The notes beneath the pieces were generated by a model that was not told where the DNA came from, did no database searches, and saw only the letters and a list, made by a program, of their open reading frames with translations. The position numbers and the translations under genes are program-made. 64,000 nucleotides of DNA from Agelaius tricolor (lineage: Eukaryota > Chordata > Aves > Passeriformes > Icteridae): contig JALJCS010000028.1 of assembly GCA_023055355.1 (NCBI GenBank), forward strand, positions 9,126,418 through 9,190,417, given 5' to 3'. How positions within the stretch are numbered: the first letter of the stretch is position 1; the number at the start of each line of letters is the position of its first letter. Shown one piece after another: positions 22,539-63,576 of this stretch.

Positions 22539-25500
22539 CTAGGCCCCCAGCAGCATTCCCATGAAATCGGAGCCGGGCTGGACGGTGAGGGCAGCGCTGG
22601 CGCCGTTGTCCACGAAGATGGAGGCGTACTGGCCAGCCTGCAGGGAAATAGGGAAAACGGGAATTTCTGCAGGGAAAACACGGGAAATCCCTTCCTCCAG
22701 CAGGAATCCGTGGAGTTTCAGCTTCCTTTTTAGCCAGGGCTGGGATTAAATGTGTGAGGTGGAATTTCTTGTTTGGAATCAGACATTTGTTAGTTTTTAT
22801 TTGTATCATTGTCCTATAAACCGAATTATGCAGCACTTTAACTAAAAACGGAGCCCTGTCTCTCTCTGCAAGGGCTCTGAGGCCTAAAGTGTCTAAATAA
22901 GAAATGACACCTAAATTATTTCTACTTTTTACTCAATAACCAACTACCCATGGCCTGCAATGTGGAGCTTTTATCCAATGGCACAAAAGCACCCAAACCC
23001 AGGAGGAGGAGGAGGAGGAGGAGGAGAAGGAGCAGCCACCACCCCAAAACCCCCATCTTGCCCCATTTATTTCTTATTCTAAAGCCCCAAACTCTGAGTT
23101 TCCCAGCCTGGGACACCTCACCCTCCTACCCAAACTGCACTCCTACCCAAACTCCCCGATCCCAGCTCCACCATTCCCTTCTGGAAGCTTCTCCTCAGCC
23201 CAGCGCTGTCCCAGGGCTCAGAAATCTGAAATTCCCAGCAGGAATTCAACCCAAGTCTGGGGCTCAGCCGATGGAGTGGAAGAATTTTTGTGGCTTTGGA
23301 AGGAATTTGGTGTGGGTTTTTCTGGGTTTTTTTCCAAAAAATCTTCCCTGCCCTGGCGCCTTTTTGGGTGAAGTGGGTTCAGAGCCCCTCCTGGGAGGTG
23401 GGAAATCCCACTGGGAATAGAAATTCCCAAAGAAATCCCATCGGGAATGGAATCCCCATGAAATCCCATTGGGAATGGAATTTCAGTTCATTGGGAATGG
23501 AATTCCACTGGGAGTGCAATGCCAGGGGAGGGTTGGGAAATAAAAATGAATTAAAATTTATTATAAATATTGGATTTTTCTTTTTCCCATGCCTTCAATT
23601 CAGAATGTGAAACCCCAGTCAAGTTTTCCTCCTGGTGCTGCCCCAGGTGAGGAATTTCCCTCCTTTAAATGTAGGAACAAAGAGGGTTTATTATTTAATT
23701 ATTATTTATTTGCTACTTAGTTAATTATTTATTTTATTGTTCTTTATGAATAATAATTAATTTTAACATTATCATTAGTTATTGATTTATTTATTATTTA
23801 ATTATTTATTTGCTATTTATTTCCTGGAATTCCAGGGGAGGGTCCAGGAAGTAATTCCATGTCCTCCCCAGAGATTTGGGGCAGAAATTCCCAATTTTCA
23901 GGGCCTCACCTGCAGCTGCAGCAAGCCATGGACATAAACAGTGAAGATTTTGCTGTTGCTTTCCAGGCCAGCAATGACTTCCAAAGACCTAAAAGTAAGG
24001 AATAAACAGATTAAGAATATGAAAAGCTGGAGCCCCTTGGCACCTGCTCAGTCCAGTTAAACTCAGTTTTAAGCCTGGCTGGTTCCTGTCCATTGTTGTT
24101 TTTCCTTATTTTCCCAATTTAACCAACCCCTTTCCTCTTTTTTTTTTTCTTAATTATTTTTTCCCAGTGATGAATCCCTGCACATTCCATTGTGTTTTTT
24201 CCAGCAAAAATAACAAGAGGGAGCCCCTTGGCACCTGCCACTCAGCACAAACCCAGTTAAACTCAGTCTTAAGCCTGGCTTTTCCTTATTTTCCCAATTA
24301 AACCAACCCCTTTCCTCCTTTTCTTTTGTTTTTAATTATCTTTTCCCTGTGATGAATCTCTGCAAGTCCCAGCGAGTTTTTCCCAGGAGAAAGGAGAGGT
24401 TGGAGCCCTTGGCAGCGGCTCAGGCGCGGCTGTGTCGGGTCCTGCCCCAGCCCTCCCCTGCTCCCCCCGAGCTTCGGGGCTCATCCCAACCCCCCAGGGC
24501 TTTTCCAGCCCCATGGATGGATGGATGGATGGATGGGTGAGTCAGTGCTGGCATTCCCAGGAAATTCCACAGGGAATGTGTCCAGGCAGGCTCCCAGCGC
24601 TGCTGCCGGCTCCGTCCGTCCCAGCCACGCGTGCCTGGCCTGGGACCTGCCCCAAATCCCTGCCCCAAACCCATCCTGAGGGATCTGACCCAAATCCCTG
24701 CCCCATACCCATCCTGAGGGAACCATCCCAAATCCCTGCCCCAAACCCATCCTGAGGGATCTGGGACCTGCCCCAAACCCATCCTGAGGGAACCATCCCA
24801 GATCCATCCTGAGGGATCTGGGACCTGCCCCAAATCCCTGTCCCAAATCCATCCTGAGGGATCTGTCCCAAATCCATCCTGATCATTCTGGGATCCCTGT
24901 CCCAAATCCATCCTGATTGCTCTGGGATCTGTCCCAAATCCATCCCGATCACTCCCACTGCTCTGGAAAATGTCCCAAATCCATCCTGATTGCTCTGGGA
25001 TCTGTCCCAAAGTCATCCTGATTTCTGGACCTGTGGATTTCTGGAGGAGCTCAGGGCAGGGCATTAAAATCAGCCTGGGAAGGAATTTGGGGTCTGGGGC
25101 CAAGGACAGAGCCACAGCTTTGCCCTCTGCTGGAAAAGCTCCTTTTCCAGCCCCTTCTTCCCTGGAAAAGGTCCCCAAATCCCCCTGAGGGAAAGAATTG
25201 CCAAAGTTGGCCGAGATGTTCAGAAATGTGGAAAATTAGAGGGAAAGAATCCCCTCAGTGCCCCTGGGGCGCCTCACGTGTGTCTGTGGCACAGGGACTC
25301 AATGCAGATCAGCACCCGCACGCTGTCCCGCGCCCGCAGCTGCCCTTTGCTCTTCAGCTCGCTGTGGTCTGGGAAAAACAGCAGGGAAAATGTCAGAAAT
25401 CCCACAGATTCTGGGGTTTGAGGGACAGAGGGGCATCAGCAGCCCTGGGATGGCTGCAGGAGGTGCCAGAAGGTTCCTCCATATCTGATGGAGCCAAAGG

Positions 25501-28500
25501 CAAAGGATCCAAGGTGGATCCATCACTGGTCATCAGGGCAGAACCTCTGGAATAGCAGATTTAAAATGGGATCCACCAGGGATAGAACATCTGGGATAAT
25601 GGATTTAAAAAGGGGATCCAGGGTGGATCTATCAGGGACAGAACCCTGGAATCTCAGATTTAAAAAGAGGATCCGTCACCGACCATCAGTGGCAGAACCT
25701 CTGGAATATCTGGGAATTCTCCGGGGGTTCTCCGGGGGTTCTCGAGGGGTCGGGGCTCCCTGGGGCAGCACTCACCGATGTGGATGTTGGCTGAGAACTG
25801 GTAGATGCCGCCCACGGGGGCGGTGAAGCGCCCGGTGGCCAGGTTCAGCCCCGAGCCCCGCAGGAACGCGCCCTTGGCCACGGGCTGTGGAGAGAGAACA
25901 GAGCTGAGCCCCGGGCTGAGCCCAAACCCACCCCTGGGCTGAGCCCAAACCCACCCCTGGGCTGAGCCCAAATCCCGGGGCTGAGCCCAAACCCACCCTG
26001 GGCTGAGCCCAAACCCACCCCTGGGCTGAGCCCAAACCCACCCCTGGGCTGCTCCCAAATCCCTGGGCTGCTCTGGCTCTGCATTCCCCTTCCCCAGAGG
26101 GCACAAGCCCAAACCCGACTCCTCTTGTCCCTGGCTGCGGTGCCAGTTTGGCACCCAGAGCCTCCCACAGCAGCTCCGAGCCAGGAAAAATCAGGAATGA
26201 GTTGGGCACCTCATGCCTGAGGCACAGGAAGCAGCAGCCCACTGCTGGGATGGCTTAATTAGTCCCATTTTCCCTGCTAATTAATGAGGCAGCAGCTCTC
26301 CCTCCAGCCCTGCCCATGCCTCAGGGCTGATCCTGCCTGGCTGCCAAGCCAAGCTGCCAAAAGTTTGGGAAATAATGGAATGGTGGATTTTAAAAGAGGA
26401 TCCAAGGTGGATCCATCAGGGATAGAACCTCTGGGATATCAGATTTCAAAAGGGGATCCAAGGTGGATCCATCAGGGATAGAACCTCTGGGATATCAGAT
26501 TTTAAAAGGGGATCCAAGGTGGATCCATCAGGGATAGAACCTCTGGGATATCAGATTTAAAAAGGGATCCCAGGTGGATCCATCAGGGATAGAACCTCTG
26601 GAATAATGAATTTAAAAAGGGGATCCCAGGTGGATCCACCTCTGGCCTCCTTTGGACACCTTCTCATGGATTTGTCTCTTCCTTTCAGCCCCAGAGGAGT
26701 TTCTGGGCCCAGCAGAAGCCCCACAGAGCCCTGGAGCTGATCTCCAGCAGGATGAGGCTGGGGTTCCTCACCAACTGGAAATTGTGGAGTTCCACCAAGG
26801 TCTTCTTGTCCACCAGCACCTGGCCCTTGAGCTTGCAGTGGAAGGCCTCCTCCAGGCGCCGCTGTGAGGGAGCCTCCTCCAGGGACAGCAGCAGCGGGGG
26901 CAGCTGGCTGGGCTGGGCTGAGATGGCCAGGGAGGCCCTGTGCTCCATGGCTTCTGAGGGGAAAAGGGGAATAAAACAAAATTAAATTAAATTAAATTAA
27001 ATTAAATCTTTATTTAGTGGCCTGCCCATTCCTGTTCCTGTGATGGAACCTCCTCCAGGGACAGCAGCTGGCTGGGCTGGGCTGAGATGGCCAGGGAGGC
27101 CCTGTGCTCCATGGCTTCTGAGGGGAAAAGGGGAATAAAACAAAATAAAATTAAATAAAATCTTCATTTAAGGGCCTGGCCTATGAAACCATTAATGTGT
27201 GCCTGGAATTCTGCACTTGGATCTTCAATTAAAGCCCAGCAGCACTGGGGGAACATTTTTGGTTGCCATTTTGGTTCACGGCTCTTCACCAAAACAAAAC
27301 TCCTCCAGCCTTTAACACCCTTTACCTTGAATATCCTTTGGAAATCTTTGACTTTTTAAATCTTTTACCTTTTAAGATCTCCTTGAACTCCTGCAGAAGA
27401 ACTTCCCTGGTGACTTCAGCCCCGGGAGCTCCTGGAGGTCCCTGAGGCCCAGGAGGCCCCGGAGGCCCCACCAGGCCTCGCTGAGGGAACAAAGGAAAAT
27501 TTGGGATTAAAACCTGGGAATTGCAGAAAATCCTACAGGAACATCAGCAACGTGAGGGGGTTTGTTCCCAGAAAATTCCTGGTAATTTTTGGAGGACACT
27601 GAGGGATCAGGAAGGGCCAAGAGCTCTGAGAGTCCCTCAGAGATCTTTTTCCAGCTGCTGGGACTCCCATTCCCTGATAATCCTCTAAAATTCCATGGAA
27701 AAGCTGCCCAGACATTCAGAGGACGCAAAAAATGCCTCAAATAATTAAAATAATTAAAATAATCCAAGATTGTCCAAGCAGCAGATGAAAAGTGCCACAT
27801 GATTAATGAGCTGTCACTCAGCTCATTAATTTGAAATAAACCACTTGTCCACACCTTGATTAATTGATCCTTTGGGATACTTGGACTTTATCTCTTGGAA
27901 GGAAAAGAAAAACCCTGATTTTATTTTTAATGAGTGGGAAAATAACCTAGATAGAAAAGGCTCAATTTGAGAGATGAGAAAGGCTCAGTTTGAGAGAGGC
28001 AGGTTCAAAATTCCCACATCTCCACTGCCAAAGCAAGAAGGCTCAAATTTCTCAAAAAGGGAGAAATTAAACCCCCCAAAAAATGGAAATTCAGCACTCT
28101 TTGGGCTGGGAAAAGCTGGAACCATGAGGATGAGCAGCAGGAAGGAAACTGGGACACGTGGGGTGCAAATCCTACCAATTTTTTGTCTTTGCCTTTGCAT
28201 CTCCTCTTGGAGTTGCTGCCGTCGTCCGGGCGGTGCACGAAGGAGATCCAGGTCCTGCGGGGGTCTGTGATCCGTGCGTCTGCAGCCTCCAGGAGCTGGG
28301 GACAACCAGGACAAGGATCATGGAGGGATTGGCCTCAGGGGTCCCAAAAATCCAGCCCAGGAGCTGGGGACAACCAGGACAAGGATCATGGAGGGATTGG
28401 CCTCAGGGGTCCCGAAAATCCAGCCTGGGCTGCTGGTGCTGCTTTTGGAGGACACTGAGGGTGGCCTTGAGGGATCAGGAGGAGCCAAGAGCTCCAAAAG

Positions 28501-29420
28501 TCCCTCAGAGATCTTCAAATTCCATGGAAAACCTTCTCAGATGCTTGTAAGGTGCTAAAAGTCCAGCCCAGGCGGCTTTTTGGAGGACACTGAAGGATCA
28601 GGAGGAGCCAAGAGCTCTGAGAGTCCCTCAGAGATCTTTTTGTAACTGCTGGGACTCCCATTCCCTGACAATCCTCTGAAATTCCAGGGAAAACCCACCC
28701 AGATTCTCCTAAGATGCAAAAAAATCCAGTCTGGGCTGATCCTGCTTCTTTTGGAGGACACTGAGGGATCAGGAGGAGCCCGGAGCTCTGGAAGTCCCTC
28801 AGATCTCTTTTTCTGAGTCCCTCCGATCTCTTTTTCTGAGTCCCTCAGAGATCTTTTCCCACTGCTGGGACTCCCATTCCCTGACAATCCCCTGCAATTC
28901 CATGGAAAACCCACCCAGATGTTCAGGGGATGGAAAAATGGATCATTCTGGGAACAATCCCAGAACCCACCTCGGGCGTTCTCTGCTGTTCCCGACATGA
29001 GGAACCATCAAAATTAAACATAAAAATTGAAGGAAATTGGTGCAATGAGGTTGGGAAAAGAGGCAGGAAAATCCCAATAACTCCAGGAATAACTCTGGGA
29101 ATGATCCCAAACCCACCTTGAGAGTTCTCTGCTGTTCCCAACATGGAGAACAATGAAAATTAAATAAAAACCCAAAGAGAATTGATGAAATGAGCCCGAA
29201 ATCAGCTCAGAAAAGGCAGGAAAATCCCAATAACTCCAGAATAACTCCAGGAATGACCCAAACCCACCTTGGGCTGCTCCTCGCTGTTGGCCAGGGAGGT
29301 GTTCAGGGGCTCCGGGTGCTCCTTCCTGCCCCTCCTGTCCCTGTCCCTCCTGGCCGCTGTCACCACGCGGGGACACAGCTGGTGGCACAGCAGCGCCAGC
29401 AGCAGCCACCAGCCCGGCAT
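22539..29420 (-). CDS. C1QTNF12: C1QTNF12 (adipolin/CTRP12), complete, 8 exons, 314 aa
   Basis: Secreted adipokine of the C1q/TNF-related family that promotes insulin sensitivity in mammals. Exons in order: 29268-29420, 28176-28295, 27369-27480, 26772-26953, 25776-25884, 25278-25368, 23910-23988, 22539-22637. All have GT/AG sites and consistent phases, giving one frame of 315 codons. Domains: signal peptide (1-~22, [14 protein letters not shown]), NTS glycosylation site at N40, conserved [12 protein letters not shown] (66-77), basic KRRC (81-84) at the place where mammalian adipolin is cut by furin, a short collagen stretch [16 protein letters not shown] (96-111), then a C1q domain (~160-314) with [32 protein letters not shown] and YASIFVDNG. 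Exon 2 needs the acceptor at 28297-28296 to keep phase. Three exon edges are duplicated in adjacent introns. Human is 302 aa as I recall. Confidence 0.95.
22995..23030. repeat. GGA triplet run in C1QTNF12 last intron
   Basis: About nine GGA/GAA triplets. The rest of the last intron (22,638-23,909) holds a short 'cccattgggaatggaat' repeat at 23,395-23,515 and an AT-rich 'attatttatt' stretch at 23,685-23,820. Confidence 0.7.
24510..25020. repeat. (GGAT)n run plus minisatellite with ~36-58 bp units
   Basis: A run 'atggatggatggatgg' at 24,510-24,540, then from about 24,640 units containing 'ccaaatccctgccccaaa', 'ccatcctgagggatctg' and 'tcctgat..ctctgggat'. Inside the C1QTNF12 intron between the two exons at 23.9 and 25.3 kb. 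Confidence 0.75.
25480..25700. repeat. ~61-bp minisatellite, first locus
   Basis: Units contain 'ggatccaaggtggatcca', 'tagaacctctggaata' and 'gatttaaaa.gggatcc'. The same unit forms a second array at 26.37-26.65 kb, on the other side of a coding exon. Confidence 0.8.
25895..26075. repeat. 21-24 bp minisatellite next to C1QTNF12 exon 5
   Basis: 'ctgagcccaaacccacccc' plus 'tggg' is repeated about eight times, starting about 10 bases beyond the exon's 3' splice site (ag at 25886-25885). Confidence 0.85.
26370..26650. repeat. ~61-bp minisatellite, second locus
   Basis: About five copies of the unit described at 25.48 kb ('gatccaaggtggatccatca', 'gggatatcagat'). Two arrays of one unit flank the exon at 25.78-25.88 kb. 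Confidence 0.85.
26868..27182. repeat. Tandem duplication containing the 5' half of C1QTNF12 exon 4
   Basis: The real copy (26,868-27,026) includes the first part of exon 4 and its 3' splice site. The second copy (27,049-27,182) repeats 'ctgtgctccatggcttctga' and the acceptor, with the corresponding exon start at 27117. It lacks about 15 bases near the GGGGC stretch. Both end in (AAATT)n-rich sequence. The copy could act as a 68-base exon (27050-27117) but would break the frame. Confidence 0.85.
27585..28935. repeat. Dispersed ~160-bp repeat family in C1QTNF12 introns
   Basis: 'ttttggaggacactgaggga', 'agtccctcagagatcttttt' and 'tgggactcccattccctga' occur together at about 27,585, 28,445, 28,570 and 28,750. 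Copies therefore sit on both sides of exon 2. Confidence 0.8.
28290..28432. repeat. 70-bp tandem pair carrying the exon 2 acceptor of C1QTNF12
   Basis: 'aggagctggggacaaccagg' followed by 'acaaggatcatggaggga' is present twice. The first copy contains the working 3' splice site (ag at 28297-28296), the second a decoy about 70 bp upstream in the gene's direction. Confidence 0.85.
28960..29285. repeat. ~145-bp triplicate carrying the exon 1 donor of C1QTNF12
   Basis: 'cccaaacccaccttg' plus 'ctg.tgttccc' (the exon 1 end and its GT site on the minus strand) occurs at about 28,970, 29,110 and, as the real junction, at 29,257-29,290. Confidence 0.75.
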
Positions 29421-35229: not shown

Positions 35230-38200
35230 TCACTCCTGGGCTATGCTCCTCAGCACGTACTTGACTGTGTAGGCGAAGGCGGCGAAGCCCACGATGACGA
35301 ACAGGTTGGCCAGGGCCCCCCCCAAGAGTCCGTGGTTCCTGGGCGGCTGCTGCAGGCCCCCGGCGGGCCCGGGCGCCAGCGCCGCGCGCGGCCCCAGCGG
35401 CGGGGCCTGCCCGTGGTGCCCCAGGTGCGCGTCCCCGTCCGGAACCACGTCGGGCAGCGGCAGCGGCGGCGGCCGGGAGCTCAGCTCCTCCTGGGCCCTC
35501 TGCTTCTGCTTCATCTCCTGCAGGGGGACAGCAAATCCAGTGGGAAAGGGGAAACTGAGGAGGGGCAGAGAGGGGCCGGGAGCTCAGCTCCTCCTGGGCC
35601 CTCTGCTTCTGCTTCATCTCCTGCAGGGGGACAGCAAATCCAGTGGGAAAGGGAATCTGAGGAGGGGCAGAGAGGGGCCCTGGAGCTCAGCTCCTCCTGG
35701 GCCCTCTGCTTCTGCCTCATCTCCTGCAGGGGGACAGCAAATCCAGTGGGAAAGGGAATTTGGGGGGATCTTGGTGGGTCTGAGTGCTTGGGAAAGGGGA
35801 AACTGAGGAGGGGCAGAGAGGGGCCCTGGAGCTCAGCTCCTCCTGGGCCCTCTGCTTCTGCCTCATCTCCTGCAGGGGGACAGCAAATCCAGTGGGAAAG
35901 GGGAATCTGGGGGGATCTTGGTGGGTCTGAGTGCTTGGGAAAGGGGAGGAGGAAACTGGGGCGATTTGGGCACTTTTGTTTGATTTTCTGCACAGGGAAA
36001 AAGAAAATCAAATGGGAGAGTGGGATTTGGGGAGGGGCAGGGAGGGAGCTCAGCTTGCCCTGTGCTCTCTGCTTTTGTTTCAGTTCCTGCAAAAGGGGAG
36101 AGCAAACTGCGGTGATTTGGGTGCTCTTGCTTGATTTCCTGGAAAAAGGGAGAGGAAATCCAGTGGGAAACTGGAATTTGTGGGGGTTTTGGTGGCTTTG
36201 GTTGATCTCCTGCATGGGAAAGGGGAAACTGAGGAGGGGCAGAGGGGGAGGTCTGGAGCTCAGCTCGTCTTGTGGTTTTTGCTTTTGCTTCATCTCCTGC
36301 AAAAGGGGAGAGGAAACTCAGTGGGAAAGTGGAATTTGTGGGGATTTGGGGGCTTTTGTTGGATTTCCTGCATGGGAAAGTGAATCTGGGGAGGGGCAGC
36401 AAGGGAGGTCTGGAGCTGAAAAATGAATAATGAATGAAGATTTCCTCACCTCCACCACTTCAGGGAAGAGCTCACAGAAGACTTTGTCTTTTAAATTAAA
36501 TGCTAAGCTCTGTGCAGCCAGCTGCCTTTTCTGGGGAGAAAAACCAAATTTATCAGCAACTCCTTGAAAACCCAATCCATTTATTTCAATTCCACCCCTC
36601 ATTTCCCACCAGAACAGTGCAAACCTCACACCAAGTGGGTTTTAACATTTAAAACATCACATTTGTGAAGATTATTGACTAAAATTGAGGTTTATAAGCA
36701 CAAATTATGTTAGTTTTTGATCAGGGTCAAGGAAAAAGGCTGGAAAAAGGAACCAAATCCCAGCCAGGCTCTACCCTTGAGCAATCCCAAATTCTGTGGC
36801 ACTGTGCCCAAGGGACTCACGGTGAACTCGGAGGTCTCGATGCTGCCCAGGGTGGGCCCCTTCTCCACCATGAAGCTGAGCAGCCCCGTCAGGATGGTGG
36901 ACACGGACCAGGCCGGGTTCCAGGTGTCCGGGTGGAAATCCGTGATGGACAGACAGAGCCTGGCCAGGGACAAACAGAGCCGGGAACCAGGAATGGGGCT
37001 GGGAACGGCTGGGCCGGGAACGGGGCCTGGGCTTGGGATGGGAATGGCTGGGATGGGAACAGGGCCTGGGTTTGGGATGGGAACGGGTCCTGGGTTTGGG
37101 ATGGGAATGGCTGGGATGGGAACAGGGCCTGGATTTGGGATGGGAACGGCTGGGATGGGAACGGGGTCCTGGGTTTGGGATGGGAACGGCTGGGATGGGA
37201 ACAGGGCCTGGGTTTGGGATGGGAACGGCTGGGATGGGAATGGGGTCCTGGGTTTGGGATGGGAACGGGGTCCTGGGTTTGGGATGGGAACGGCTGGGAT
37301 GCTGGGAAAGAGCCCTGGATTTGGGATGGGAACGGCTGCAATATTGGGAAGGAGCCCTTACCTTGTGTTGCACTTGAACCTGCCATTGGGGGTGATCATA
37401 TAAATACTGGGGGGTTTGAAAGGGAATTCTCGAGGGAATATTAATTTTCCGTGGTAATATCCACCTGGAAACCAGCAAAAAATGGGTTAAATGAGTCATA
37501 TTTAATAAAAATCTCCCATCCTCAATTCCCCTGCTTTATTCCTTCTTCTAAAGCACCCAAATGGGTGAAATAATTTGTATTTAATAAATACATATAAAAT
37601 TATATTAAATAAATCCTACTCTTGATAAGAATGACTGACAGCAGCATTCCCTATTTCTTCACCTCTTTCCCAGTTTTTGGAGCCGTTTTTAGTGGGGTTA
37701 TTTTGCCTTTCCCCACCCCCTGGAATTCCTGAATTTCCTGCAAACGCCCAGGCAGGGATTTACCTTCATATGGGGTCAGCTCAGGCCCTCGCACCACGTA
37801 GTGCCTGGAAAAGAGGGAATGGAACACTGGGAAAAACCACAAATACCCCAAAAATCAGGAGCAGCCTCAGGTACAGCCTCCCTCTGCACCTGCCCAGACC
37901 CCAGAGAGAGGGAGAAAGAGCTGAGAGCGTGGGAAACCTGCTGCTGCTGCTCGGGGGTGAGGGACAATGCACCCCAACTCCCACCCCAGCTCCCACCCCA
38001 GTTTTCCATCCCTAATTCCCCATTTCCAACTCTCCCCCTCCAATTCCCATTCCCCCATTCTCAATCCCCACTCCCATTCCCCAATTCCCATTCCCATTCC
38101 CCATCTCTCCTTTCCAACCCCATCCCCACCATTCCAGGATGTTGGAGGGCAGAGGCTCAGCACAGATGTAAGGCACTGGATCCTTTTTGATCCTCAGGTA

Positions 38201-38260
38201 ATCCTGCTTCAGCCTCTGCGTGGCTGTGGTGGGGGCCCTCTTATTGCTGCTGCTGCTCAT
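35230..38260 (-). CDS. UBE2J2: UBE2J2 (Ubc6-type E2), complete, six coding exons, 260 aa
   Basis: Tail-anchored ubiquitin-conjugating enzyme of the endoplasmic reticulum used in ER-associated degradation. Coding exons: 38130-38260, 37764-37804, 37362-37464, 36821-36959, 36450-36530, 35230-35517, with GT/AG sites and consistent phases, 261 codons. The UBC fold (~12-165) includes [40 protein letters not shown] and [18 protein letters not shown], with the catalytic cysteine at C94. A linker (~166-228) is followed by the membrane tail [18 protein letters not shown] and IAQE. The acceptor lies immediately before the ATG (tttatttag|ATGAGC), so all 5'UTR is in upstream exon(s). A non-coding exon ends at 39199 in a CpG island. 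The terminal exon's 5' edge is repeated in the preceding intron. Human is 259 aa as I recall. Confidence 0.96.
35480..36420. repeat. Repeat array built from the UBE2J2 terminal-exon acceptor
   Basis: Six copies of a unit holding an acceptor, the first ~14 codons of the last exon ([14 protein letters not shown]) and flanks 'gacagcaaatccagtggg'. Exon-like starts on the minus strand are 35517 (real), 35620, 35723, 35869, 36086 and 36296. Upstream copies diverge ([29 protein letters not shown]). A last fragment without the acceptor lies near 36,395-36,417. Offsets of 103, 206, 352, 569 and 779 bases are all out of frame with the real exon. Confidence 0.93.
36990..37345. repeat. Minisatellite in UBE2J2 intron, ~33-45 bp unit
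   Basis: 'gggatgggaacggctggga' alternates with 'gggtcctgggttt', about ten copies, between the exons at 36.96 and 37.36 kb. Confidence 0.85.
38000..38120. repeat. Short CCCATT-type simple repeat
   Basis: 'cccattccc' and 'ccaattccc' units just past the 5' splice site of the first UBE2J2 coding exon. Confidence 0.7.
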
Positions 38261-38444
38261 CTAAATAAAAAACAGTTAATTCGTTAATTACAATGAAATC
38301 CATTCATTAAAATTCATTAATGCAACCTCAGTAAGCACAGAGCTTCATAGAACCTTTCTCCAGGTCTTTATAAAATCCACTTTATGGTTGTATTTGAGAT
38401 GTAAATTCAATGATTTGGATTTATATTCTATTATTTGAATTTTT

Positions 38445-39140: not shown

Positions 39141-39164
39141 GAGAACGCAGAGAGTGAGACAGGA

Positions 39165-39485
39165 AGGCAGCCCGCCCGTCCCTCCCCGTCCCGCTCACCT
39201 CTCCGCGGCCGCCAGGCCCCGGGCGGCCCCTCCTGCCCGCGGCCGAGGGAGGGAGGCAGGCGGGGAGCGGCGGCCGGGCCGCGATGGCGGCGGAGCGGGC
39301 GGGGCGGGCAGCGGCGGCCGCGGCTCCCTCACGGCTGCAGCCAAGATGGCGGCGCTGCCGGGAAGGAGCCGGCGGCGCTTCCGGGGCTCGCGCGGCTTCC
39401 GCTTCCGGGGCCGCGCGCGCAGGGCGGGAACCTGAGGGGAACCTGAGGGGAACCGTGAGGGGGAGCGCGGGCCGGGCCCAGCCGC
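39165..39485 (-). promoter_or_regulatory. UBE2J2: UBE2J2 CpG-island promoter and non-coding exon 1
   Basis: CpG-dense sequence with GC boxes ('gcgggcggggcgggc', about 39,296-39,309), a YY1-type motif AAGATGGCGGC (39343-39353) and a minus-strand donor GAGAG|gtgagc with the exon ending at 39199. No TATA box. The transcription start lies somewhere between about 39,220 and 39,480. Confidence 0.7.
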
Positions 39486-47815: not shown

Positions 47816-47871
47816 TTCCCTCGGATTAATGACTTTCCATTGTTTTCCATGCCTAGAAAGCCGTTTGGAGG

Positions 47872-50800
47872 ATGGAACCGGAGCTCCCAGGAGCAGCAGC
47901 AGCAGGAGAAGCAGCCGAGGAGGGGCTGATCGAGTTCTACGGCTCCTTCAAGGAGATGTTTGAGTTCTTCTGCAAGAACACCACGATCCACGGCACCATC
48001 CGCCTGGTGTGCTCGGGCAGGAACCGCATGAAGACGGCGTTCTGGACGCTGCTGCTGCTGGCCAGCCTGGCCATGCTCTACTGGCAGTTCGCCCTCATGC
48101 TCAGCCAGTTCTGGGCCTACCCTGTGGTGCTCACCATGTCCATGGACTCCGAGCCCAAAATGTTCCCGGCCGTCACCATCTGCAACCTGGATCCCTCCAG
48201 GTGAGCTGAGCTTTGGCAATGCTCTGGGATGTGTCCCTAAAGGCCTGGGAATGGTCTGGGATGCGTCCCTAAAGGTTTGGAATAGTCTGGGATGTGTCCC
48301 TGAAGGCTTGGGAATGGTCTGGGATGTGTCCTAAAGGTTTGGAAGGGTCTGGGATGTGTCCCTAAAGGTTTGGGAATGGTCTGGGATGTGTCCTAAAGGC
48401 TTGGGAAGGGTCTGGGATGTGTCCCTAAAGGTTTGGAATGGTCTGGGATGTGTCCCTAAAGGCTTGGGAATGGTCTGGGATGTGTCCCTAAAGGTTTGGA
48501 AGGGTCTGGGATGTGTCCCTAAAGGTTTGGAATGGTCTGGGATGTGTCTCTAAAGGCTTGGGAAGGGTCTGGGATGTGTCCCTAAAGGCTTGGGAAGGGT
48601 CTGGGATGTGTCCCTAAAGGCTTGGAAGGGTCTGGGATGTGTCCCTAAAGGTTTGGAAGGGTCAAGAACCCCTTGGATGCATCCCACAGCCATCCCCATC
48701 TGCCATCCCAGCACACCTGGATGCTCCCAAAGGTTTGGGAAGGGTCAGGGATTCCTCCCCCAGGAGGGACATATAACATTATTATTACTAATAAATATCA
48801 TTAATAATTTAAATATTAAATCAATATTATTAATAAAGATTATTAATAAATTAAATACTAAATAAAGCTATTAGATTTAGGTGTGCTGAGCAGCAGAATT
48901 TCTGGATACTCTCCCACAGATCCCAAGGAATAACCTTTCCATGGAGCTTGTGAGATCAGAAATGTGGCATTTTTCCCAAAATGTGGAATTTTCTCCCAAT
49001 CCCTGCAGGTTTGAGCTGGTCAATGAGAGATCAGAAATGCAGAATTTTTCTCAAAATGTGGATTTTTTCCCCAATCCCTGCAGGTTCGAGCTGGTCAGCG
49101 AGCAGCTGGAGCAGCTGGAGCGCATGGCCGAGGAGTCGCTGACCTTCCTGTACGGCCCCAAGGCCGCGGCCAGGCTGTCCCAGCTGAGGGACAGGAACAG
49201 GGACAGGGACAAGGACGGCACCATCCGCGTCCAGGCCTGGGCCAACCTCAGCAGCGCCGGCTTCAGGCTCAGCCACAACTTCTCCCTGGTCAGGATGTGG
49301 GACCCCAGGGCCGGCAAAGAACATTCCAGAGTGGGATTCCGGCTGGTGAGCGGCACAGAGGGGGATCGGGGCACGGGGGGATGTGGGGGCACCTCTGGCG
49401 TGGGTACGCCCCAGAGAAACTGGGGATTCACCCCAAAATACCTGCATGGGATTTACACCAAAATGCCTGGATGGGGATGGGGATTCACCCCAAAATACCT
49501 GCATGGGATTCACACAAAAATAATCTATTACTATTAGGGAATAATAATAATTCCCATATAATATAATAATATAGATATAAGTTATATATAATATATTAAA
49601 ATTATATATGATAATATATTTCATATGCATAATGCATAAATATATTAATATGTATTATAATATAATAAATATAATAGAGATAATATATATGATGTGATAT
49701 AATATAATATAATATGTTACTATAATATAATAATAATTCCCATAATAGTAATAGGTTATGGTAATAAGCTATTGCTATTATGGGTATAATAATGGTTCCC
49801 ATATAATGATATATATAATCTAACAGAACAATTATTATCATACACCACTAACAATAAATCCCCCAATAACAACAGATGGTCTCCCCCTTTCCCTGTGTCC
49901 CAGTGCAACTCCACAGGTGGGAATTGCTTCTACACCTCGCACCCGTCGGGCATGGACGCGCTGCTGGAGTGGTTCCGCTTCCACTACATGAACGTCATGG
50001 CGCAGCTGCCGCCGGGGCCGCCACAGCACCAGCAGCACTTCCAGGACCTGGTCTACTCCTGCCAGTACGATGGGGAGCCCTGCAGGCCCAGGTGGGACAC
50101 ACGGCCCCGGGTGGCACCAGGGGAGTGCAGGTTCTTATGGAAAGGGGGATGAAGCTCTGGAATGGCTGCCCGGGAGGTGCTGGAGTCCCCATCCCTGGGG
50201 GTGTTGAACAAAGCCTGGGTGTGGCTCTGGGTGCCAGGGCTGAGTTGAGCTGTTGGGGCTGGGTTGGGCTCAATGATCTTGAAGGTCTCTTCCAGCCTGG
50301 GGATTCTGAGAATTCTCTGAATTTGGGGTTTCCAGGGCATGCACAGCTCCTTGCCCCTGTCCCAAACACACCCAGCTTGGAATTAAGGTGGTATCACACT
50401 TAAAACCCCATTAAATCTCTCTTGATTTTCCAGTAAAACTCCATCAAATCTCTCTTGATTTTCCAGTGATTCCCATTTTCCCAACACACCCAGCTTTGAA
50501 TTAAGGTAAAAAATCAATTAATTAAACCCCATCAAATCTCTGATTTTCCAGTGATCACGTTCACTTCCACCACCCAGTTTTTGGGAGCTGCTACACTTTT
50601 AACAGCAAGGGGACAGATCCTTTCTGGGCAGCCACAAAACCAGGAATTCCTTATGGTGAGTGATCTGCAAAATGGGGGAAAAGAGCTAAAATTAAGAGAA
50701 TTCATTAAATTTGTCCTCAGTGCAGGATTTAGTGATAAATTTTGGCATCTCTTGTGCCACGACAATATTATTATTTTAAGCCCCAGCAGCATCTGGGCTT

Positions 50801-52729
50801 AAAAAAGCAGAATTTATGAGGGTTTGCAATAGGTGCCATTATCACCAGGGCTCTGAGGATTAAAAATGGCTCTTGAGGGATCCCAGAGCCCAAATCTGGG
50901 ACCCAAACCCAAACAGGAGGGATTTGCCCAGTGCTGGTGCCCCCGGCTGTCCCCAGCCCCCCTGTGTGTGTCCCCAGGGCTGTCCCTGATCCTGCGGGCC
51001 GAGCAGAAGGAGCACCTCCCGCTGCTGTCCACGGTGGCCGGCGTGAAGGTGATGATCCACAGCCACAACCAGACCCCGTTCCTGGAGCACGAGGGCTTCC
51101 ACATCCGCCCGGGCATCGCCACCACCATCGGCATCCGCCAGGTGGGCACGGGTGGGACCATCCCAAACCATCCCAAACCAACCCCAAACCATCCAAACCA
51201 TCCCAAACCAACCTTCCATCGGCATCCGCCAGGTGGGCACGGGGTGGGACCATCCAGAACCATCCCAAACCAACCCAAACCATCCCAAATCATCCAAACC
51301 ATCCTAAACCAACCCCAAACCATCCAAACCATCCAAACCATCCCAAACCAACCTTCCATCGGCATCCGCCAGGTGGGCACGGGGTGGAGCCATCCCAAAC
51401 CATCCCAAACCATCCCAAACCATCCCCAACCATCCCAAACCAACCGAAACCATCCAAACCATCCAAACCATCCCAAACCAACCTTCCATCGGCATCCGCC
51501 AGGTGGGCACGGGGTGGGACCATCCAGAACCATCCCAAACCATCCCCAACCAACCCAAACCATCCCCAACCATCCCAAATCATCCAAACCATCCCCAACC
51601 AACCCAAACCATCCCAAACCAACCCCAACCATCCCCAACCAACCCCAACCATCCCAAACGAACCTTCCATCGGCATCCGTCAGCTGGGCACGGGGTGGGA
51701 CCATCCCCAACCATCCCAAACCAACCCCAACCATCCCCAACCAACCCAAACCATCCTTCCATCGGCATCCGCCAGGTGGGCACGAGGTGGAACCAAACCC
51801 AGCCATCCCAAACATGGATGGTTTTGGTATCTGCCAGGTGGGCACTAATTAATGAACCCTGCTAATTAATCACCCTTTGTGTCCCCACAGGACCAGGTGA
51901 ATCGCCTGGGGGGCAACTACGGCAGGTGCACCACGGACGGGGCCGACGTGGCCGTGGAGCTGCTCTACAACAACTCCTACACCCTGCAGGTACCGAGCCT
52001 GGCTTAGTTAAACCCAGCTTAGCCAGGCTCTACAACAACTCCTACACCCTGCAGGTACTGAGCCTGGCTTAGTTAAACCCGGCTTAGCCAGGCTCTACAA
52101 TAACTCCTACACCCTGCAGGTACTGAGCCTACCTTAGCTAAACCCAGTTTTGCCAGGCTGCAGCTGCTCTACAACAACACCGATTTTTTTTTGCCCTTTT
52201 CTCTTAAAAGCTCCGTCCTACAGATTCCAATTTTTTTTGCCCTTTTCTCCCACCAGTTCCACGCTAGAAATGTGGGATTTTTTTGGTTTATCCCAATGCT
52301 TTCCCTGTTTCCAGGCCTGCCTGCACTCGTGTTTCCAGCGGGCCATGGTGCAGCGCTGTGGCTGTGGATATTTCTATTACCCGCTGCCCGCCGGGGCGCG
52401 CTACTGCGACTACAGCCGCCAGCCCGCCTGGGGTAAGGAGCAGAGACAAATTAAAATAAAAAATATAAAATATAAAATAATAATAATAAATCATCTCTGG
52501 GGTTACCTGGGAATAGCGACTGCAGCCGCCAGCCCGCCTGGGGTAAGAGAGCCTGGGAGGGAATAAATAAAACTAAAACTAAAAATATATGAATAATCGA
52601 AATGTATTAATATTGAAATAAAAACATGAATACATGAATAATAATAATAAAAAAAATAAATGCCTGGGATTCACTGGGAATAGCAACTACAGCCACCAGC
52701 CCACCTGGGGTAAGTGAGCCTGGAAATGA

Positions 52730-52775
<46 letters not shown>

Positions 52776-55162
52776 GAATTCACTGGATCCTAGGAAATAA
52801 TCACTGGGATTTCCTGAATACTTGGGAAAAAACCCCTGGAAATTCCTGAGTCCCTGGGGAATCCCTGGAATCCAAGAATTCCCTGGGTTTCAAGGATCCT
52901 GGATCCATGGGGTGGGAATTACCTTTAAGGTCCCTTCCAGCCCAAAATTCAGGGATTTCAGGATTCAATTCTGATTATTTTCCTTTGGGATCATTCCAAA
53001 GGGAGTGGGGATTCCTGGGAATTCCCAGCCCTGTTCCTCCCATCCCATTTTCCAGGGCACTGTTTTTACCAGCTCTACTCCCGGCTCCGGAATCACCGCC
53101 TGGATTGTTTCCAGCACTGCCCTAAACCCTGCAGGTGAGCCCCAGAAATCTCAATTTAAATTTCAAGTCAATGCTCCCATCGTTGTAAAATTTAATTTAA
53201 ATTAAAATTAAATTTACTCAAAATTTAATGTAATCTAAATGAAATTTAATCTAAATGTAATGGAAATTAAAATTAAATTTAAATTTAATGTTCCTATATT
53301 TTTCTCTTTTAAATTTAATGATTGAGATTTATTCTATTTAATCAACATTTAATTTAATACATTTATTTATATTATTTATATTTATTATATTTAATTATTC
53401 AGGGTTTATTTTGTGACCTGAATTGGGAAGCTTTTCCCAAAGTTCTGAAGAGCTGCCCTGGGAATTTTCTGGATTTCTGGGAATTCTCCCTGGGCAGCTC
53501 CTGGTGCTCAGAATTCCTGGGTTTTTTTTCCTCCCCAGGGAATCCCTGTACAAGGTCTCAGCTGGCACAGCCAAGTGGCCCTCGGCAAAATCCCAGGTAC
53601 TGCAAAAATTCCCATAATGAATATTCCAATAACAAATATTCCAATAATGAATCTCCCAGTGACAAACATTCCAATGCCAATATTCCAGTATCAAATATCC
53701 CATTGATAATAATTCATTGGAAACATTCCAATAACAAATATTCCAATGTCAACGTTCCCATGGCAGGACTGGGTGCGCCAGGCTCTGCGGCACCAGAATG
53801 GCTACAACTCCAGCAGCAGCAGGTAAATCCTGGGATCATCCCAATCCATGGGATATTCCCAATCCGTGGGGTCTGGGATGGGGCAGGGAGGGCAGCAGGT
53901 AAATCCTGGGATCATCCCAGTCCATGGGATATTCCCAATCCATGGGGTCTGGGATGGGGAGGGGAGGGCAATGGGAAAACCTGCACGATCATCCCAAAAA
54001 ACCACCAAGGAACCCTAAAAAAACTCCCAATAAATGTCAAAGAAGTTCCCAATAAAGCCCAAAAAACTCCCAATAAATTCCCAGTAAATCTCCAATAAGT
54101 CCCCAAAAAATGTGCCCCAGTCCCAGCCAGGAATGCCCTGGAGCCAACTGGGAATGTCCCCAGTGCCCACTGGGAATGTCCCCCCAGTCCCAACTGGGAA
54201 TGTCCCCAGTGCCCATTGGGAATGTCCCCAGTGCCCATTGGGAATGCCCTGGAGCCAACTGGGAATGTCCCCAGTCCCCCTGGCAATGCCCGCGGTGCCA
54301 GCCATGCCGTGCCGTGCCAGCCGTGCCGTGCCAGCCATGCCGTGCCAGCCGTGCTGTGCCAGCCGTGCCAGCTGTGCCGTGCCGTGCCAGCTGTGCTGTG
54401 CCAGCCGTGCCGTGCCATGCTGTGTTGTCCCTGCAGGAGGGACATTGCCAAGGTCACCATCTTCTACCGCCAGCTCAGCTCCCAGGCCGTGCACGAGGCC
54501 CCGCTGCTCTCAGTAGGTGACAGCTCCTTTTTATTCCCTTCCCATGGAATTCTTGAGAGTTCTAGCAGGGATTCATTCCTAGAATTTAATTATTTACCTT
54601 TATTTTTAGAGTATGTAAAAATATATATGTTCATTTATATGATAATATTAATTATTAACATATTAATTTAGGCTTTATTTTTACATTATACATAAATACA
54701 TTTATTTGTTTATATGACATTAATATAATTTTATTTTTATTTTATATTATATATATATTTATATACTTATTTATTATATATATTAATTAGCTCAATTCCC
54801 AGACTGAGGAATAGGGAGACCATAGAAAAATCAATAGAAAAATCCAAAGAGAGCCCCAGAGCTGTCCCATACCTGATGGTCTCTGGGTTTTCCAGGAGAA
54901 CCTGCTGCTGTCCAGCATGGGCAGCCAGTGGAGCCTCTGGTTCGGCTCCTCCGTGCTCTCGGTGGTGGAGATGCTGGAGCTGCTCCTGGACACCCTGGTC
55001 CTGTCCGGCCTCTTCTGCCTGCAGAGGCTCCGGGCCCGGAGGGGCCCCCGGGGCTCCAGCCCCACCCCAAATCTCAGCCTGGCCCCGGGGAATCGCAGGG
55101 AATTGCGGGAGGGAGCCCAGGACTCGGGACTGGGGCAGGGGCTGGAGCTGGGGCAGCTGTGA
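47872..55162 (+). CDS. SCNN1D: SCNN1D, epithelial sodium channel delta-type subunit, complete, 12 coding exons, 599 aa
   Basis: Pore subunit of an amiloride-sensitive Na channel (ENaC/degenerin) at the plasma membrane. Exons: 47872-48200, 49084-49345, 49904-50091, 50552-50655, 50978-51141, 51891-51989, 52315-52432, 53056-53134, 53539-53596, 53767-53822, 54437-54512, 54896-55162. All splice GT/AG in consistent phase, 600 codons. The start is in 'gaggATGgaacc', with an acceptor 15 bases upstream. Features: the HG gating motif at 40-41 ([12 protein letters not shown]), TM1 ~55-77, a cysteine-rich extracellular domain ([46 protein letters not shown]), TM2 ~520-552 with selectivity-filter region WFGSS (526-530) and [11 protein letters not shown]. 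Exon 11 uses donor TCA|gtaggt. I see no RxxR furin site in the finger region and no PPxY in the short tail, as expected for delta. Sequence is alpha-like in places; synteny decides for delta. Confidence 0.93.
48205..48760. repeat. ~38-bp minisatellite in SCNN1D intron 1
   Basis: 'ggtctgggatgtgtccctaa' plus 'aggtttgg' or 'aggcttggg' is repeated about 13 times, starting within 30 bases of the exon 1 donor. AT-rich sequence follows to 48,880. Confidence 0.9.
48940..49095. repeat. Tandem copy of the SCNN1D exon 2 acceptor
   Basis: 'tcccaatccctgcaggtt' plus 'gagctggtca' occurs at 48,993 and 49,068, 75 bp apart. The upstream site (AG at 49007-49008) would start the exon at 49009 and add exactly 25 codons with no stop. 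Confidence 0.92.
49510..49860. repeat. AT-rich microsatellite in SCNN1D intron 2
   Basis: 'ataataatataatat' and 'tagtaataggttatgg' sequences with homopurine-free TA runs between exons 2 and 3. Confidence 0.8.
50130..50325 (+). mobile_element. CR1 LINE 3' fragment in SCNN1D intron 3
   Basis: 'ggaatggctgcccgggagg', 'gtccccatccctggggg', 'gggctcaatgatcttgaag' and 'gtctcttccagcctggg' are the classic avian CR1 3' end, plus orientation, 5'-truncated. Confidence 0.85.
50405..50556. repeat. Three copies of the SCNN1D exon 4 acceptor region
   Basis: 'ccatcaaatctct..tgattttccagt' occurs at about 50,409, 50,448 and 50,529. Only the last (AG at 50550-50551) precedes the coding exon. The first two are followed by 'aaaact' and 'gattccc'. 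Confidence 0.8.
51117..51850. repeat. Minisatellite containing the SCNN1D exon 5 end and donor, six copies plus a fragment
   Basis: Each long period begins 'catcggcatccgccag|gtgg' (last codons of exon 5 and its GT site) followed by a variable 'aaccatcccaaacc' array. GT sites follow CAG ending at 51141 (real), 51232, 51372 and three more near 51,501, 51,682 and 51,776. The fifth reads 'cgtcagctggg' and has lost the canonical site. A shorter 'tctgccaggtgggcac' lies at 51,829. The exon frame stays open through the whole array. Confidence 0.93.
51962..52165. repeat. 65-bp triplicate of the SCNN1D exon 6 end and donor
   Basis: 'ctctacaacaactcctacac' plus 'cctgcag|gta' appears at the real junction (GT after 51989) and again with GT after 52054 and 52119, then a partial fourth near 52,165. 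Extra copies contain in-frame stops ('cttagttaa'). Confidence 0.92.
52410..52725. repeat. Three copies of the SCNN1D exon 7 end and donor
   Basis: 'cagccgccagcccgcctggg' plus 'gtaag' is found at the real donor (exon end 52432) and again ending at 52542 and 52709. Offsets of 110 and 277 bases are out of frame. Confidence 0.9.
52735..52775. repeat. (AAT)n microsatellite
   Basis: About 14 AAT/ATA triplets in SCNN1D intron 7. Confidence 0.95.
52910..52976 (+). mobile_element. Short CR1-like 3' tail
   Basis: 'tacctttaaggtcccttcca' plus 'gcccaaaattcagggattt' resembles the CR1 terminus. Fragment in SCNN1D intron 7. Confidence 0.5.
53810..53960. repeat. 76-bp tandem pair carrying the SCNN1D exon 10 donor
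   Basis: 'gcagcag|gtaaatcctggg' occurs at the real junction (exon end 53822) and again with the copy's exon end at 53898. Confidence 0.88.
54280..54435. repeat. 9-10 bp GCCGTGCCA minisatellite
   Basis: 'gccgtgccagccatgccgt' array directly before the SCNN1D exon 11 acceptor, preceded at 54,110-54,280 by a 'gggaatgtccccagtgccca' minisatellite. Confidence 0.9.
54580..54790. repeat. AT-rich stretch in SCNN1D intron 11
   Basis: TA/TTTA-rich low-complexity sequence between exons 11 and 12. Confidence 0.75.
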
Positions 55163-59265: not shown

Positions 59266-59269
59266 TGGT

Positions 59270-61523: not shown

Positions 61524-63576
61524 CTAACACTCATCGATGTTGAGGCTGATGAACTCCTGGATGCATTTCCTGTACTGCAGCTCCGTGGGGCTGTTGCTGG
61601 GGTACTGCCCGGGCTGCCCCAGGGGCCCCTCTGCCTCCCGCATCTCCTCGTTCATCCGCGCCAGCCGCAGCCTGCGGGGACGCCAGGGGAGGCTTGGTTA
61701 TTCCTGCCCCTGCTGGTTCTCGGCGTTTCCCAGCGCTTCCCAGCGTTTCCCAGCTCCCAGGCAGCAGCTCCTGGTGTTCCCACTATTCCCCAATGTTTCC
61801 CAGTCCCCCAAGGCAGCGTTCCCCACTGGTTCCCAGTCTCTCCCAGTCCCCAGGCAGTGGTTCCTGGTGTTCCCAGTACTTCCCAATGTTGCCCAGTCCC
61901 CATGAAGTGTTTCCCAGTAGTTCCCCATGTCTCCCAATGCCTCCCAGTGTTTTCCAGCGTTTCCTGATCTCTGGGCAGTGTCTCCCAATGTTTCCCAGTA
62001 TTTCCCAATGTTTCCCAGTATTTCCCAGCCCTCCCAGTGGCACTCACAGGGTGACGATGTCGGCGTTGGCCGCGCTCACCGCGATGCTCAGCGGGTCCTG
62101 CCCGTCCCCGTCCGGGGTGTCCTGGGTGGCCCCGCGCTTCAGGAACAGGCACACCTGCCTGGGGAGGGAATGAAACAATTCCTGAATTCCCTAATTCCAG
62201 AGGCAGGAACAGGCACACCTGCCTGGGGAGGGAATGAAACAATTCCTGAATTCCCTAATTCCCAAATCCCAGCCCCACGCTTCAGGAACAGGCACATCTG
62301 CCCGAGGGACAGGGAGCTTCAGGAAAGGAATTCCAGAGGCACAGAATTCCAGCTCATCATCCTTATCCCAGGGTGCTCCAACCTGCCCTTGGGCACTTCC
62401 AGGGATGGGGCAGCCTGAAATCCTCAGGGAATTCCATCCCAGCCCCTCCCCAGGGAAAAGCTCCCACTCCAATCTCCCACCTCACCCCGCCCCATGCCAG
62501 CCCCGAGCTGCTGCCAACGCCCCAAAATCCGCATTTTCCAGCTGGATTCCCCCAGATCCTGAGGTTTTGCGCTCTCCAGGTGGGAATTTCCTGCAGGAAG
62601 CAGGGATGGATGGATGGCACTCACCCGGTGAGCCCCAGGTAGGTGGCAGGGATGGATGGGTGGGTGGCAGGGATGGATGGATGGTGGATGGGTGGATGGA
62701 TGGGTGGATGGATGGGTGGATGGATGGGTGGATGGCACTCACCCGGTGTGCCCCAGGTAGGTGGCAGGGATGAGTGGATGGGTGGATGGGTGGATGGATG
62801 GATGGGTGGGTGGGTGGATGGGTGGCACTCACCCGGTGTGCCCCAGGTAGGTGGCAGGGATGGATGGGTGGATGGGTGGGTGGATGGATGGGTGGCACTC
62901 ACCCGGTGTGCCCCAGGTAGGTTGCGTGGTGCAGCGGCGCCCGGCCCCGCGCGTCCCGCTGGTTCACATCGGCCCCGTTCTGCAGCAAGAACTCACAGGC
63001 CAGCAGGGAGCCCTGGAAACGGGGGGAAAATGGGGGGAAGAATGGGAATTTCCACTCAGTTCAGCCAGATTGGACAATTCCCAAAGGGAATTTCTACATT
63101 CCACATCCATTCAAACAAACCCAATTCCCAAAGGGAATTCCCACACCAGACCGGACAATTCCCAAAGGGAATTCCCACACCAATTCACCCACGCCAGACG
63201 ATTCCCAGAGGGAATTCCCACTCCATTTCACCCAAACTGGACAGCTCCCATGCTCCAGTCCCCCTCCCCACGTCCCCTCACGCCGCTGACAGCCTGCATC
63301 GGGGGGTTCTGCCCGTGTCCCACCCCACATCCCCAGCCCCGGGGACCCTCACCCCACTGACAGCCTGCATCAGGGGGGTTTTGCCCTCGTCCTCCTCGTT
63401 GGCCCAGTTGACATCGGCGCCGTGGGCCAGGGCAGCGGCCAGCAGGGGCAGGTTCCGGCTCCGGGCGGCCCGGGACAGAACCAGCCCCGCCGGCACCTCC
63501 CGAACCTCCTCCAGGTCCGACACCTCCTGCTCCAGCTCCGCCTCCCCGCTGGAGTCATCCGACACCTCGCACTCTG
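61524..63576 (-). CDS. ACAP3: ACAP3, C-terminal four coding exons (ankyrin repeats); gene leaves the window on the right
   Basis: Arf GTPase-activating protein with coiled-coil, ankyrin repeat and PH domains, acting on Arf6 at endosomal and plasma membranes. Only the last ~196 residues are here: exons 63353-63573 (or 63576), 62903-63012, 62048-62158, 61524-61671, in consistent phase to a TAG stop at 61526-61524. Visible: acidic [20 protein letters not shown], then ankyrin repeats [40 protein letters not shown] with [12 protein letters not shown], and [12 protein letters not shown] to [18 protein letters not shown], then [15 protein letters not shown] and a C-terminus ending [11 protein letters not shown]. 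The third exon needs the acceptor at 62160-62159, since the AG four bases later breaks the frame. The first exon has a tandem CAGCAG acceptor, so one residue may vary. BAR, PH and ArfGAP domains lie beyond 64,000. ACAP2 is similar; synteny and the tail favour ACAP3. Confidence 0.88.
61700..62040. repeat. TTCCCAGT-type minisatellite in the ACAP3 last intron
   Basis: 'gtttcccagt' and 'tcctggtgttcccag' units, about 60-bp super-period, fill most of the intron between the last two exons. Confidence 0.85.
62138..62310. repeat. Three copies of an ACAP3 exon start and acceptor
   Basis: 'caggaacaggcacacctgcc' plus 'tggggaggg' occurs at the real exon start (62158) and 64 bases upstream in gene direction (62222), with a degenerate third near 62,285-62,310. 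Confidence 0.88.
62355..62475 (-). mobile_element. CR1 LINE fragment
   Basis: 'cagggtgctccaacctgcc', 'gggcacttccagggatgggg' and following text match an internal 3' segment of CR1 in reverse orientation. A near-identical segment recurs at 63.85 kb. Confidence 0.65.
62600..62935. repeat. (GGATGGGT)n array with four copies of an ACAP3 exon end and donor
   Basis: 'ggcactcacccggtgtgccc' plus 'caggtaggt' (reverse of HATYLGHTG and its GT site) occurs at exon ends 62903 (real), 62833, 62743 and 62625, separated by ggatgggtggat arrays. Offsets of 70, 160 and 278 bases are out of frame. Confidence 0.93.
63060..63245. repeat. ~50-bp repeat in ACAP3 intron
   Basis: 'ttcccaaagggaattccca' recurs four times with varying spacers. 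Each contains the inverted motif 'ttccc.aagggaa'. Confidence 0.8.
63280..63385. repeat. Tandem pair carrying an ACAP3 exon end and donor
   Basis: 'ctgacagcctgcatc' plus 'ggggggtt.tgccc' occurs at the real junction (exon end 63353) and, degenerate, at about 63,282-63,315, about 72 bases into the intron. Confidence 0.85.

Follow-up and report, generated by a model that had tools for sequence, protein, structure and literature searches.

Exon edges and splice sites tandemly copied into the adjoining introns of neighbouring songbird genes

The locus and its gene models

We analysed a stretch of 64,000 nucleotides from the songbird Agelaius tricolor (hereafter the window; positions 9126418-9190417 of contig C28, JALJCS010000028.1), in which the edges of exons, together with their donor or acceptor splice sites, are tandemly copied into the adjoining introns of neighbouring genes. 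The genes concerned are a C1QTNF12-like gene (22539..29420, minus strand), UBE2J2 (35230..39238, minus strand), SCNN1D (47857..55162, plus strand) and ACAP3 (61524..63573, minus strand). The first has 8 coding exons and 315 codons including the stop, with a C1q domain that scores 22.8 bits, just under the Pfam cut-off of 23.7; UBE2J2 has 6 coding exons and a 5' exon of which the donor boundary alone was placed, and its UQ_con domain lies above the Pfam cut-off, as do the ASC domain of SCNN1D (12 exons, the first acceptor putative; best matches to songbird ENaC delta) and the ankyrin repeats of ACAP3. The window contains the last four ACAP3 exons, and thirteen others lie in a 10 kb stretch outside it (L049). 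Gene names are supported by Pfam and protein matches and, beyond those, are putative.

Exon borders were placed with human orthologues as a guide and then checked by frame, and the coding frames join open. In this way 63 splice sites were modelled by GT/AG in five genes, 56 of them in the above four and 7 in an SDF4-like gene (1424..6907, minus strand; four exons in view, EF hands above the Pfam cut-off); two acceptors with exact duplicates were chosen by frame and exon proximity. Among the 120 of 307 matches listed for the joined SCNN1D protein, that of Geothlypis trichas agrees at 93% over 97% of the query and a Rhodinocichla fragment at 97%, and the best-named songbird matches are labelled delta, with some others labelled SCNNA or alpha. 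In the comparison with PDB, ENaC alpha (596.8 bits) scores above delta (544.5 bits).

The contig measures 9,321,253 bases in an assembly of 214 contigs and 1.158 Gb, and the window lies 131-195 kb from its end. The window is dense in minisatellites, with 345 Tandem Repeats Finder (TRF) rows of score at least 40, overlapping rows counted. Of the intron sequence, 37.7% lies in TRF arrays of period at least 10, as against 28.6% between genes and 5.3% in exons; the median cover of the 30 introns is 36.5%. Repeat density on the contig is patchy: twenty 10 kb samples range from 0.5% to 99% TRF cover, and the blocks of the window from 22% to 40%. Eight loci on other contigs, picked by pattern, have 0.7-5.4% cover, far less than the introns of the window, and form, with the paralogue loci considered below, a small genome sample. 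The GC content is 62.7% in exons and 45.5% in introns (43.6% in those of SCNN1D).

Thirteen junctions with copies in their own introns

A preliminary description of the window had listed thirteen splice junctions at which an intronic repeat unit contains the edge of the exon and the splice site. We aligned each junction (30 nt on either side), with gaps, against its own adjoining intron only, ending the search at nine pieces per site, and at all thirteen recovered one or more copies that run across both the exon edge and the splice site; the thirteen are distributed over 11 of the 30 introns. A stricter test, ungapped and demanding at least 22 of 30 identical positions within 600 bp, is passed by ten; more diverged are the C1QTNF12 exon-1 donor (18/30), the SCNN1D exon-4 acceptor (17/30) and the SCNN1D exon-7 donor (21/30). 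Identity is complete (30/30) at four of the thirteen. TRF arrays (period at least 10, score at least 40) cover 10 of the 63 junctions, and 8 of these are among the thirteen.

The preliminary description knew of no name for such copies; that statement is outdated by Hron et al. 2026 (Genome Biol Evol, evag038; PMC12954441), who named and described the phenomenon in chicken as exon stuttering, and in the literature searched the term occurs in that paper only. Thus, the phenomenon already has a name, and what is new here is a songbird case, on a contig that is probably not a dot chromosome and with an intron GC of 45.5%. We repeated the main settings of the published screen (blastn-short, at least 20 nt and 42.1 bits), without its multiple-source filter and manual review. 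It returned nine proximal hits in 5 of the 30 introns and no distal ones, and 20 shuffles yielded no hit. In all five introns the source is at the border (distance 0), and an extra piece of the C1QTNF12 exon concerned starts 61 nt in.

On the minus strand, the C1QTNF12 exon-1 donor (junction 29267/29268; 28950..29290, ends approximate) has two diverged downstream copies with extensions of 151 and 297 nt that keep GT, and a third, weak one that has lost it. The exon-2 acceptor of this gene (28295/28296; 28283..28425) has a single copy 68 nt upstream, seen by TRF as a 68 bp unit in 2.0 copies with 98% matches, and its exon-4 acceptor (26953/26954; 26857..27182) a single copy 164 nt upstream, which the published screen recovers at 107 bits with 54 exon nt. 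At the last-exon acceptor of UBE2J2 (35517/35518; 35463..36420, minus strand) there are at least nine upstream copies, AG being present in 9/9 and the best having 47 exon nt (93.7 bits). The range of two to six copies given in the preliminary description therefore holds at its lower end, but the upper end is at least ten at this UBE2J2 acceptor, several of its copies being weak.

All six SCNN1D junctions are on the plus strand. The copy 75 nt upstream of the exon-2 acceptor (49083/49084; 48947..49104) would, if used, add 25 residues in frame and free of stops, and the exon-4 acceptor (50551/50552; 50403..50581, ends approximate) has two short diverged copies 85 and 118 nt upstream. Six copies were found downstream of the exon-5 donor (51141/51142; 51118..51850), five of them with GT, separated by CATCCCAAAC-like repeats. 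GT is kept in both copies of the exon-6 donor (51989/51990; 51950..52260), at 65 and 130 nt, and in both of the exon-7 donor (52432/52433; 52399..52725), at 110 and 277 nt with AT-rich spacers. The exon-10 donor (53822/53823; 53810..53975) has a good copy at 76 nt, which includes 7-12 exon nt, and a weak second one without GT. In ACAP3, on the minus strand, the acceptor of the second-last exon (62158/62159; 62124..62309) has copies 64 and 143 nt upstream, AG being lost in the second; one donor (62902/62903; 62589..62931) has three junction-spanning copies at 70, 160 and 278 nt, all with GT, and another (63352/63353; 63258..63385) a single copy 71 nt downstream that keeps GT.

Junctions against the intron and exon background

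A local check of the overlap between tandem duplication and exon borders places the junctions above exon interior and far below the surrounding intron: by the strict 30-mer test 10 of 63 junctions are duplicated, as against 44.1% of deep-intron positions and 3.5% of exon interior. The relaxed gapped test gives 18/63 junctions (the thirteen and five others), 292/493 deep-intron and 36/225 exon-interior positions. Similarly, 10/63 junctions lie inside a TRF array by 5 nt on each side, compared with 36.8% of 19,699 deep-intron positions. In the SDF4-like gene, which the preliminary description had not included, none of the 7 junctions passes the strict test though 33% of deep-intron positions are duplicated, and the gapped test finds 2/7. 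No peak of repeat coverage is seen at the exon border by a 24-mer measure, and two further measures have the same shape: coverage rises from 5% at -120..-60 through 19% at -10..0 and 27% at 0..10 to 54-56% at 60-200 nt. When the array map was shifted circularly, 17.7 covered junctions were expected (10-25) and 10 observed, with 33 of 1000 shifts giving 10 or fewer.

The L049 stretch, unseen in the preliminary description, served as held-out material: its 13 ACAP3 exons, with 26 junctions, read in an open frame throughout. Here the strict test finds 1/26 junctions duplicated as against 50.6% of 7,324 deep-intron positions, TRF covers 1/26 junctions as against 50.0% of intron, and the gapped test finds 5/26 junctions as against 204/300 deep-intron points. 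The clear case, the donor of a 215-nt exon with 54 exon nt repeated at 100%, is of the same kind as the thirteen sites. An enrichment of duplication at splice sites is thus rejected locally by TRF cover, ungapped 30-mers, gapped copies and the held-out stretch; the borders are protected and not targeted, with a mild preference possible. The copies, their position and their density against intron and exon are direct observations. Median TRF cover is similar in introns with junction copies (11) and without (19), at 0.40 and 0.35; those with copies are GC-richer (0.50 vs 0.42) and exceed the others in length (623 vs 404). L049 also has an ACAP3 intron with a GC-AG donor, placed by frame, at about 7008, and at about 9025 the acceptor of a BAR-region exon with a diverged copy about 0.9 kb upstream.

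Other repeats and features were seen along the contig. The window has large minisatellites at 15882-16655 (22 bp x 35), 4136-4792 (38 bp x 18, in an SDF4 intron) and 19413-19713 (10 bp x 29), and a short telomere-like run of GGGTTA x 6.3 at 9671-9708, internal to the contig and some 185 kb from its end. Farther off, TRF marks 99% of C28:1200000-1209999 (L011) as tandem repeat, perhaps a satellite or centromere. Within the window, a single exon at about 7754-8770, which we take to be B3GALT6, was kept out of the junction counts.

Decoy splice sites and predicted proteins

Of the 35 copies in the gapped junction alignment, 31 retain the splice dinucleotide. Conserved protein sequence suggests that the exon-proximal splice site is the one used. 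Use of the decoys would usually be harmful: among the 31 that are intact, a frame shift would follow from 26 and a stop falls inside the extension in 15, and the three that are in frame and open are all in SCNN1D. None of three Geothlypis isoforms (the ordinary P0001 and the longer P0034 and P0035) has decoy use. The extra residues of the two longer ones seem to start from an acceptor within the intron ahead of exon 8, and this acceptor is not one of the junction copies.

Pieces of the arrays do appear in the predicted proteins of other songbirds. A piece of the predicted Urocynchramus protein P0006 matches the translated SCNN1D intron-5 array (tblastn E 4e-12, somewhat flattered, with no composition correction), and a stretch of the canary protein P0050 matches the repeats before SCNN1D exon 1 (E 5e-19, again uncorrected for composition). 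The arrays would therefore predate Agelaius tricolor, or recur, and such matches are a warning to annotators. The predicted SCNN1D proteins P0050 and P0002 (Onychostruthus) start with a duplicated piece of exon 1, to which the canary adds a translated upstream array. In the tit orthologues P0019, P0020 and P0056, long in-frame KIHENDR-like coding repeats stand where exon 2 in the window has DRNRDRDKD, which may represent repeat growth within a coding exon.

Paralogous loci

A search with the SCNN1D protein finds exons of ENaC paralogues on contigs C9 (47.7 Mb) and C19 (17.4 Mb), which we take to be SCNN1A-like and SCNN1B/G-like, respectively. TRF cover is 0-6.5% at five SCNN1A loci and 0-5.6% at four C19 loci, as against 32-44% at nine SCNN1D loci; with exons delimited by alignment only, 1.6% of SCNN1A intron positions are duplicated. 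No exon match could be used from loci L046 and L048.

Probable spill-over from duplicating introns and its rivals

The junction copies are probably spill-over from introns that steadily gain local tandem duplications, a form of sequence stuttering. A duplication unit that happened to straddle an exon border would copy the exon edge and the splice site along with intron; the copy nearest the exon would still serve as the border, and the others would turn intronic and may multiply with the array. Selection would purge arrays that reach far into exons, leaving border-spanning arrays rarer than purely intronic ones. The duplications themselves may have originated by replication slippage, template switching or unequal meiotic conversion. 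The tolerance of redundant splice sites suggested in the preliminary description fits this account, because the site next to the exon persists and its copies are absorbed into the intron, and the sites would be tolerated rather than useful. Its premise that nothing would make an ordinary minisatellite begin within a coding exon fails where introns are 38% tandem repeat.

Some observations nevertheless pull against spill-over as the full account, beginning with the SCNN1A paralogue, where the donor equivalent to that of exon 6 is tandemly copied (1/20 exon flanks, 50.1 bits). This donor, on C9 at about 5530-5640 on the gene strand of the joined loci L033/L042/L038/L039/L047, has a unit of 38 nt that takes in about 30 exon nt, 25 of them identical, in an intron that is otherwise nearly unique. 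Its counterpart in SCNN1D is the exon-6 donor, a homologous junction that is stuttered too, and by simple multiplication a duplication rate of 1.6% would give about 0.3 stuttered flanks among 20. Nothing else in the data points as strongly to something at junctions, but a single coincidence is too thin a basis. In simulations where exon overlap was purged until exon coverage roughly equalled that observed, 6.2 covered junctions were expected and 23 of 300 runs reached 10; milder purging gave 7.5 and 65 of 300, and a border preference of up to two-fold is thereby left possible. In addition, a slightly different copy rule gives 33 copies, 30 of them with an unchanged splice dinucleotide, whereas neighbouring dinucleotides in the same copies are unchanged in 396/490 (81%) and random intronic pseudo-junctions in 623/859 (73%); this lean to retention may or may not be an effect of alignment anchoring.

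These observations bear on two rivals of different kinds. Junction-seeded copying, in which repair or replication would have a preference for starting or ending at the borders of exons, for example at the GC step or at co-transcriptional structures, is unlikely here. It could draw on the two stuttered exon-6 donors, which are on different contigs with units of 65 and 38 nt, on the step from an exon GC of 62.7% to 45.5% in introns, and on the border source in each of the five introns found by the published screen, in keeping with over 90% of the chicken cases. A border-located source, however, is expected from any unit that straddles a border, and five exon matches in the four C19 loci have no copies. 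Above all, the proposal of the preliminary description that exon edges act as repeat seeds finds no support in this region, since junctions are duplicated less than ordinary intron (10/63 vs 44.1%; held-out, 1/26 vs 50.6%) and coverage has no border peak; SCNN1A leaves it a small opening. On that opening, it is a rather unlikely conjecture that exon borders are weak but real duplication seeds in birds, the exon-6 donor of SCNN1D and SCNN1A stuttering recurrently and independently even in otherwise unique introns, by a process that would respond to a feature of the junction, be it transcription, splicing or the GC step, and not to repeats alone. If the coincidence proves general, the mechanism becomes testable. 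The retention lean would instead suit selection that maintains redundant splice sites as a splicing buffer or for useful isoforms, as would the three SCNN1D decoys with open in-frame extensions; yet the lean comes from 33 copies, one array supplying 9 in the junction alignment, most intact decoys (26/31) would shift the frame, and the extra residues of the Geothlypis isoforms seem to begin at an acceptor that is not a copy, so that we consider such selection very unlikely.

We think it equally improbable that reads were falsely duplicated at repeats during assembly. The four junctions with a copy identical over 30 nt would be compatible with such an artefact, but simple false duplication fits poorly with copies that mostly differ from their source, and the assembly is contiguous (214 contigs for 1.158 Gb, with 9.32 Mb in that of the window). 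The match of Urocynchramus P0006 to the intron-5 array indicates a like array in another songbird, and stuttered introns of chicken PHF8 were verified with nanopore reads by the authors of PMC12954441. Spill-over from duplicating introns remains the preferred reading, and the comparison of border-spanning copies with the intronic duplication rate adds a rate test to the study of such copies.

Comparison with known systems

The minisatellite of the interferon-induced 6-16 gene is a mammalian precedent for the copies in the window. They also recall the Rogers model of intron gain by tandem duplication, illustrated by potato RdRp (PMC4974935), in that a duplication crossing a border carries splice signals with it. 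Unlike that case, in which a new intron arose, the copies here are held by existing introns, as judged from the coding frames. Intron gain was rejected as an account of the locus: the frames join without an extra exon, and the best songbird SCNN1D orthologue among the matches listed (120 of 307) agrees at 93% over 97%. Introns built of tandem repeats are shared with the repeat-rich introns of GC-rich chicken genes (PMC6792250), for which high GC and G-quadruplex motifs are stressed; here the intron GC is 45.5%, and such motifs occur in 8/11 stuttered and 12/19 other introns. With no clear difference between the two, G-quadruplex motifs were rejected as a mark of stuttered introns.

The window is presumably syntenic with chicken chromosome 21. 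Several songbird SCNN1D orthologues, again among the 120 of 307 matches listed, are on contigs of about 7-8.5 Mb, and the contig of the window is probably not a dot chromosome.

The closest known system is exon stuttering itself (PMC12954441). In chicken it affects 115 genes and 236 introns, of which 190 are on the dot chromosomes (16, 29-32 and 34-38), 10 on other microchromosomes and 36 on macrochromosomes, so that dot chromosomes are strongly preferred but not obligatory. The stuttered share of dot introns is 190/5,572, and a comparison of the 5/30 introns of the window with it is biased because the window was picked for the feature; in L049, 1 of 13 introns is positive (proximal hits only), which does not differ from 3.4%. 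Local repeat expansions are also recorded there in some other birds, and replication stress or meiotic conversion is offered speculatively as the mechanism. Two of the three main features of exon stuttering are present in the window; the third concerns large differences in intron length among individuals. As in chicken, a lateral part of the exon with its adjoining donor or acceptor runs in imperfect tandem copies through the adjacent intron, and the tandem-repetitive introns, intact coding sequence, border source and hits above the published BLASTn threshold are likewise shared. Unlike in chicken, the copies belong to a songbird and lie on a 9.32 Mb contig of moderate GC. A form of genome instability in birds, known mainly from the dot chromosomes of chicken, is thereby extended to a songbird and to a contig that is larger, of microchromosome size, and moderate in GC.

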